Shown here one piece after another: positions 39,526 to 39,780 of a stretch of 56,292 bases of DNA. Made by a program: the position numbers and the translations under genes. Each line of letters starts with the position of its first letter. Positions within the stretch are counted from its first letter, which is position 1. The stretch comes from Gammaproteobacteria bacterium (lineage in GTDB: Bacteria; Pseudomonadota; Gammaproteobacteria; Pseudomonadales; Pseudohongiellaceae), in the NCBI GenBank assembly GCA_030828385.1, contig JAURCS010000018.1, positions 1 to 56,292 on the forward strand, given 5' to 3'. The notes under the pieces were generated by a model, which ran no database searches, was not told where the DNA came from, and was given only the letters and a program-made list of their open reading frames with translations.

Positions 39526-39780
39526 TTGGTCAGTTTCTTAGCTAAAAAGAACAATGGCTTGCTTGGTATAGACATCAGCTCCAGCTCAATAAAATTGCTG
39601 GAGTTGTCAAAGTCTGGTTCCAAGTACAAGGTCGAATGTTATGCCAGCAGACCGTTGCCTGATGGTTCCGTCGTGGAAAAAAAATATTGCCAACCTTGAT
39701 GCTGTTGGTGAAACCATGCTGAAACCAAAACGGAGCTTCTCATTTTCATAACGCCGTCTATAATCAACGAACTTCTTTAG
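39526..39780 (+). pseudogene. pilM/pilQ: Deletion scar of pilMNOPQ: pilM 5' end joined to pilQ 3' end
   Basis: From TTG 39526, with GGGGAG five bases upstream, the frame reads the start of PilM ([21 protein letters not shown], with the actin-like phosphate-binding loop). One extra A in the run at 39675-39684 shifts the frame into a stop at 39697-39699; restoring the frame continues [12 protein letters not shown]. Soon after, at about 39720-39730, PilM similarity ends. From 39730 to the TAG at 39778-39780 the sequence reads TELLIFITPSIINELL, the characteristic C-terminus of the secretin PilQ. So most of pilM, all of pilN, pilO and pilP, and nearly all of pilQ are gone. GAAACCA occurs twice at the join (39710-39716, 39721-39727). 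Confidence 0.85.

Follow-up and report, generated by a model that had tools for sequence, protein, structure and literature searches.

A deletion scar in place of pilMNOPQ between mrcA and aroK, and apparently repeated collapse of the operon at this address in one gammaproteobacterial family

Introduction

Type IV pili are costly machines that serve several purposes, and both twitching and pilus-borne DNA uptake are established outputs of the type IVa pilus machine. One of its gene sets, pilMNOPQ (PilM, PF11104; PilN, PF05137; PilO, PF04350; PilP, PF04351; the secretin PilQ, PF00263), resides between mrcA and aroK, and the intact relatives considered here share both this address and the gene order.

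Loss of pilus functions has been described in other settings. For planktonic Methylophilaceae, the passages of PMC6794327 that deal with motility report its loss along with habitat change and genome streamlining. That case resembles the one presented here in that loss of pilus-type motility is associated with smaller genomes. It differs in that the passages contrast sediment with planktonic strains, whereas here the collapses are scattered, concern one locus and have left readable scars in about half of the cases. Phage-resistant variants of Pseudomonas aeruginosa PAO1 carry pil mutations according to the relevant parts of PMC5492357, and the likeness lies in nonsense mutations of pilus genes under selection; the difference is that those parts concern laboratory selection in one strain and not natural loss in many lineages. 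Finally, excerpts of PMC2941502 describe a pilT gene that one lineage lost and a close relative retained, as is the case here, while clusters with pilB, pilC and pilQ are reported there in all subspecies. No published account of the losses in the family studied here was found in the literature searched, which comprised titles, abstract openings and a few passages.

Repeated deletion at a fixed address, with scars that can still be read in about half of the cases, amounts to a natural replicated experiment on the abandonment of pili. It bears on the question of why bacteria drop pili and on the order in which the machine falls apart.

Results and discussion

The locus between mrcA and aroK

The window, i.e., the whole stretch of DNA analysed, comprises 56,292 nucleotides (contig JAURCS010000018.1). 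It belongs to a draft assembly of 149 contigs, which is rated 100% complete and is designated G000 here. A genome of the same genus with an intact operon, G003, served as the reference, and G002 is the sister genome. In G003, the row reads MrcA, PilM, PilN, PilO, PilP, PilQ, AroK, AroB, with each of the Pil proteins recognised by its Pfam family. The flanking ORFs in the window are what we take to be mrcA, aroK and aroB. To the left lies mrcA (36679..39087, minus strand), an 802-aa ORF for penicillin-binding protein 1A with 92% identity to MrcA of G003. To the right follow aroK for shikimate kinase (39893..40432, plus strand, 98% identical to G003 AroK) and aroB for 3-dehydroquinate synthase (40407..41528, plus strand, 89% identical to G003 AroB). 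The gap between mrcA and aroK measures 806 bp, compared with 5669 bp in G003.

An earlier note on this DNA had taken positions 39526-39780 (255 bases) for what is left of a collapsed pilMNOPQ operon, and this reading is borne out by G003, which carries the whole operon at the identical address. The 255 bases consist of about the first 66 codons of pilM and about the last 21 codons of pilQ. The pilM remnant (codons 1-66 with a TTG start; 39526..39724, plus strand) is detected by tblastn with G003 PilM at an E value of 4e-27: residues 1-52 correspond to 39526-39681 with 96% identity, and residues 51-66 to 39677-39724 with 88% identity, shifted by one frame. The same piece is matched by the Pfam family PilM_2 (PF11104) with 37 bits, the cut-off being 27. 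The pilQ remnant (39715..39780, plus strand; the ~21 terminal codons with the stop) responds to G003 PilQ at an E value of 8e-6. Here, residues 711-731 of 731 correspond to 39715-39777 with 95% identity, and the stop codon occupies 39778-39780. Alignment to pilM and pilQ of relatives, which the note had proposed as a check, thus identified both edges in G003 in collinear arrangement, and the resemblance to pilQ C-termini held. As the two pieces agree with the intact operon in order, strand and address, a chance match is excluded. The frame of the pilM remnant changes relative to G003 at a run of eight A (39677..39684, plus strand), which exceeds the aligned copy in the related genome G005 by one base, in agreement with the one-base insertion seen before. 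PilN, PilO and PilP are absent from the mrcA-aroK locus of G000 when it is searched by tblastn with the G003 proteins. In comparison with G003, the scar is therefore a deletion of ~4.9 kb, in which most of pilM, all of pilN, pilO and pilP and nearly all of pilQ are gone. Unlike its intact counterparts, the operon of G000 retains its ends only and is not a working one.

The left and right blastn segments obtained against G003 overlap by ten bases, ATGCTGAAAC (39716..39725, plus strand), of which a single copy remains. This sequence is imperfectly common to both edges, since pilM of G003 has ATGGTCAAAC and its pilQ has ATGCAGAAAC; the pilM remnant of G005 has ATGCTGAAAC exactly. The locus thus combines edges that are identifiable in an intact relative with one shared copy at the join, as required for a deletion between short direct repeats. 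Slipped replication and end joining at short homologies each leave a single copy of the shared sequence, and the ends were probably joined in one of these two ways at the imperfect direct repeat of ~10 bases. The note had instead considered two copies of GAAACCA bracketing the join as the recombining repeat. This did not hold up. The first copy (39710..39716, plus strand) is ordinary pilM sequence with identical bases in pilM of G003 and G005, and the second, at 39721-39727, is ordinary pilQ. GAAACCA is thereby ruled out as the joining repeat, and its native pilM and pilQ copies flank the join by accident. GAAACCATG, too, is ordinary pilM sequence that is found in G003 and G005.

In the sister G002, more has been deleted at this place, and the pilQ end is retained in the alignment. 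The join in G002 fits another repeat, CTCATTTTC, of which one copy was kept there, while the sequence of G000 still has both, one upstream (39442..39450, plus strand) and one within the pilQ remnant (39739..39747, plus strand). The deletion in G002 could be a second, nested event following the one seen in G000.

Other genes of the type IVa pilus in G000

The note had made the end of type IV pili depend on there being no second copy of the operon, and no second copy was found by the genome-wide searches for PilM and for secretins. The secretin profile search of G000 yielded no pilus secretin, the only secretin-family match being GspD, a component of the retained type II secretion system, the genes of which are located on contig 22. 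Nor does G000 contain a further PilM above cut-off in one piece, or a PilB above the model cut-off; the best match to the PilB model (538 bits, cut-off 675.65) is the type II secretion ATPase on contig 22. Two matches to T2SSF were obtained. As a single GspF on contig 22, matching in two stretches, accounts for both, there is no PilC in G000. Of the earlier reading, the deletion scar and the shift at the A run stand, no second copy was found, and the role assigned to GAAACCA falls.

The pilT gene (contig 61, 503 bits) carries a premature stop at codon 235. A different premature stop, at codon 107, interrupts pilT in the sister G002, and the gene is whole in G005. For the pair G000-G003, a comparison of 232 codons of pilT, all of which lie before the stop, gives a dN/dS of 0.012, and pairs with whole copies give equally low values. 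This low ratio implies that the break is young. An orphan PilT that has assumed a new role was also considered and is ruled out by the stop at codon 235. PilD is intact (292-aa ORF, 84% identical to PilD of G003); it is also required by the type II secretion system. Out of the components checked for a type IVa pilus, PilMNOP together with PilQ (PilN, PilO and PilP being judged at the mrcA-aroK locus), PilB together with PilC, and PilT are thus not available in working form in G000, and only PilD is. Note that G000 also encodes an ATPase of 593 aa that belongs to the T2SSE family and has an MshEN domain (contig 67, locus L094, 7315-9096, minus strand), for which no accompanying T2SSF platform gene is present elsewhere. 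It adjoins an ORF with matches to an IS200-type transposase and to DnaA-C, and ATPases similar in score and length occur in the congeners G002, G005 and G006.

Judging from gene content, with neither pilus secretin nor PilB nor PilC and with a broken pilT, the loss of secretin and alignment complex would indeed have ended type IV pili, as the note had anticipated. Type IVa pili have almost certainly been lost in this organism, and recently so. It is expected to have no working type IVa pilus and hence to be incapable of twitching and of pilus-borne DNA uptake by this route. We see the scar as one step in a recent process that took away the entire type IVa pilus piece by piece, in the course of which pilB and pilC disappeared from the pilA-pilD locus and pilT was freshly broken.

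In principle, a scar of this kind could also arise when an assembler joins distant points of an intact operon, and the one described here is known from a draft assembly alone, in 149 contigs. We regard such an artefact as very improbable. Assembly k-mers are longer than ~10 bases, and the shared sequence of ~10 bases is thus too short to mislead an assembler in this way. In addition, a genome rated 100% complete contains no other one-piece PilM over cut-off, no pilus secretin, no PilB and no PilC, its pilT is independently broken, and other genomes show similar yet different collapses at the same address.

The pilA-coaE locus on contig 60

The old pilA-pilB-pilC-pilD-coaE locus is located on contig 60, where pilD and coaE are intact and pilB and pilC give no tblastn match at E <= 0.01. 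In G002 and G003, pilC is present at the pilA-coaE locus. Identity to the relatives changes in steps along this contig. Between 31 and 56 kb, G000 is 96-99% identical to the sister G002 in each 1-kb window, except for two windows at 42-44 kb with 93-94%. Between 28 and 31 kb, identity per kb is 89-91% to G005, 61-80% to G002 and 74-77% to G003, the latter two values resting partly on short stretches. At ~26.5-28 kb, G005 (85-91%) is again above G003 (82-83%); G002, whose contig breaks off, has hardly any sequence here, and its match covers 225 bases of the chimeric gene described below, with 92% identity. In the ten windows further left (16-26 kb), G005 reaches only 68-84% and G003 is mostly higher. 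In windows of 500 bp, the step in identity to G005 lies near 26.5 kb, where 73% gives way to 95%. The segment at ~26.5-31 kb carries the locus devoid of pilB and pilC together with a different type of coaE.

Because of these steps, the simplest reading seems to be that homologous recombination brought a segment without pilB and pilC into G000 from a G005-like relative; donor, direction of transfer and exact ends are inferred from the same steps. The two genes may thus have been lost through import of the locus from a relative that already lacked both. Segment exchange at pilA-coaE suggests that loss itself can spread via recombination.

At the position of pilA (contig 60, locus L121, 7626-8264, minus strand), G000 has a 212-aa ORF in which the leader and helix of a type IV pilin (N_methyl, 43 bits) are fused to a domain resembling 3-keto-disaccharide hydrolases (PF06439, 116 bits). 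The fusion is also found in G005 (95%, dN/dS 0.069). G002 has it too, but there the PilA part is longer and the gene is truncated where the contig stops. In G001, the hydrolase-like domain stands behind a lipoprotein-like leader, the leader type having been judged by eye. It is conceivable, though on balance doubtful, that the locus without pilB and pilC spread between species by homologous recombination and took the chimeric gene along, and that the predicted chimera is processed by PilD and displayed or secreted via the type II system.

Collapse of the operon across the family

A total of 138 genomes of the family were searched with PilM and AroK, and many proved to have a short, broken or no PilM. 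The mrcA-aroK locus was inspected in 97 of them and not in the other 41; the 97 loci are a non-random sample, as suspected collapses were picked first and intact ones afterwards. When a gap below 2.6 kb between mrcA and aroK is taken as collapse, 42 of the 97 inspected loci count as collapsed, which is a finding that the earlier note did not contain. Together with 42 intact and 12 divergent rows these make up a tree of 96; the 97th locus, G140, remained unclassed and was left out of the tree because its contig ends. The gap amounts to 141-2398 bp in 41 collapsed rows, to 5464-6085 bp in the 40 intact rows in which it is measurable and to 3511-5816 bp in the 12 divergent ones, and the intact operons inspected share the one address. 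Two collapsed rows are doubtful: G133, which is seen only in part as its contig ends inside the locus, and G101, where a pilM piece lies beyond aroK and the contig may be rearranged. G060 and G117 were counted as intact though their contigs end before mrcA. G127, G021 and G125, which had served as their own references, were relabelled from intact to divergent. G009 (L088), G021 (L087), G033 (L092) and G127 (L164), together with the inspected loci of genus g3, have a strongly diverged, often shorter pilMNOPQ-like operon in the mrcA-aroK slot, which is neither a collapsed nor an ordinary one; its PilM is ~23-31% identical to the references where measured.

By tblastn, a piece of PilM or PilQ was found in 23 of the 42 collapsed loci and none in the other 19; a search of a smaller database detected pieces in G154 and G109 as well. 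The remnants differ from genome to genome. G005 keeps pilM codons beyond 66, which are missing in G000, the converse resting on about three pilQ codons only. G004 retains nothing but PilQ 536-731, while G019 has PilQ 170-271 without the tail and G024 the tail without residues 170-271.

One explanation for such remnants is that the scars encode a small working protein, made of a PilM head and a PilQ tail, which is kept by selection. Head and tail do share one frame in G005 and G024, as do PilM 1-79 and PilQ 170-271 in G019, and dN/dS for G000-G003 is 0.06 over 52 in-frame codons, although most of this divergence may predate the deletion. Nevertheless, selection for such a protein is highly unlikely. 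The frame in G000 breaks and stops after PilM codon ~52. Judged by the frames of the hits, the join preserves the frame in four of the eight two-sided scars (G005, G024, G019 and G102, the frame of the last being broken further up), and four are out of frame (G000, G148, G129 and G134), which is no clear excess over one in three. Moreover, remnant lengths vary, and 19 of the 42 loci show no remnant at all. As there is no clear enrichment, in-frame PilM-PilQ mini-proteins were rejected.

The independence of the collapses was assessed on a tree of MrcA, AroK and AroB, which was built from these three proteins with a quick method and rooted at the midpoint for counting clades. The label "collapsed" requires at least 20 changes on this tree, 16 of which are forced by well-supported branches, and at least 19 after the relabelling mentioned above. 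If regain is disallowed, 22 maximal all-collapsed clades result. The differences between the remnants described above likewise speak for independent events. Genomes with and without the operon are intermingled on the tree, as would also be seen if ancestrally pilus-less lineages had repeatedly gained the operon by transfer. We consider repeated gain extremely improbable: remnants persist in 23 of the collapsed loci, the inspected intact operons occupy one common address, and operon and flanking genes give congruent trees. For the 42 intact genomes, the tree of PilM, PilO and PilQ has 34 of 39 splits in common with that of the flanking genes, with a distance correlation of 0.94. Each tree has 27 strong splits, 24 of which are common to both, and there is no strong conflict. 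In view of this agreement, regain by transfer was rejected, and repeated loss explains the patchwork. On a tree of other genes, the losses are thus multiple and independent, without any regain, and the operon has apparently collapsed about twenty separate times at one address in the family, as judged from these sequence comparisons.

The scar is real and its mechanism is ordinary; what stands out is the repetition across the family. We have high confidence in the account as a whole, comprising a deletion scar joined at a repeat, a recent stepwise loss of the pilus and membership in a series of about twenty collapses.

Relation to PilB, genome size and possible driving forces

PilB is kept in 6 of the 42 collapsed genomes as opposed to 34 of the 42 intact ones (32 over cut-off and 2 short of it by 4 to 7 bits; Fisher 8e-10). 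Of 14 phylogenetically independent pairs, 8.1 differ the same way, 0.1 the other way and 5.8 not at all (median p 0.008, range 0.002-0.22). The collapsed genomes with PilB over cut-off are G101, G103, G106, G113, G129 and G133, and they demonstrate that collapse of pilMNOPQ is not always accompanied by loss of every pilus gene. Collapse of the operon usually accompanies PilB loss but can precede it. Conversely, eight intact genomes have no PilB near the cut-off, some of these assemblies being incomplete. With six collapsed genomes that have PilB and eight intact ones that do not, both orders of loss may be studied. In G007 (L115) and G023 (L116), pilB is split between reading frames and pilMNOPQ is intact, which corresponds to the reverse order.

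Collapsed lineages tend to have smaller genomes. The median estimated genome size is 3.18 Mb for collapsed and 3.65 Mb for intact genomes (p = 0.0003; 42 versus 42), and 3.18 versus 3.47 Mb when only genomes that are at least 90% complete are compared (p = 0.006; 24 versus 32). On the 14 independent pairs this is a marginal trend, with 5.3 in the same direction, 0.0 in the other and a median p of 0.06.

The driving force could be streamlining or escape from phages that bind to pili. All five sequenced phage-resistant PAO1 variants in the part of PMC5492357 concerned carry pil mutations, some of them nonsense mutations, and several of the losses described here are recent, near the tips of the tree. 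On the other hand, pilus-less genomes tend to be smaller, which fits streamlining, and loss of motility with genome reduction is what the motility passages of PMC6794327 report for planktonic Methylophilaceae. Nothing examined in G000 points specifically to phages. That pilus-receptor phages rather than general streamlining drove the loss is therefore a possibility that we regard as rather unlikely.

Consequences for aroK and aroB

It had also been suggested that expression of aroK and aroB may now depend on the old pil promoter. Of the 42 collapsed rows, 41 have AroK and 40 have AroB next to the scar. The contig of G133 stops within the locus, and its AroK is found on a different contig; no AroB was seen in G101. 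In three collapsed rows, the matches for mrcA and aroK are ~141-151 bp apart. Since aroK is kept in 41 of 42 rows, including these three, the old pil promoter cannot be a general requirement. The region in G000 contains 4 promoter-like matches, as compared with 2.1 +/- 1.3 in shuffles. A candidate aroK promoter within the pilQ tail (TATAAT-type match at 39737-39764) was rejected, as the pilQ tails of the 42 intact genomes do not preserve it: only 4 of them have ATA as the codon from which the match would arise. A putative aroK promoter in this position is thus unsupported outside this genus.

In 11 of the 15 collapsed loci that keep a pilQ end, this end begins in the last tenth of the protein according to tblastn positions, G133 being excluded from the count because its match lies on the opposite strand. 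This suggests that something immediately upstream of aroK may be retained. The collapse junction of G147 (L128) contains ~123 bp without a match to either edge in the intact relative G118.
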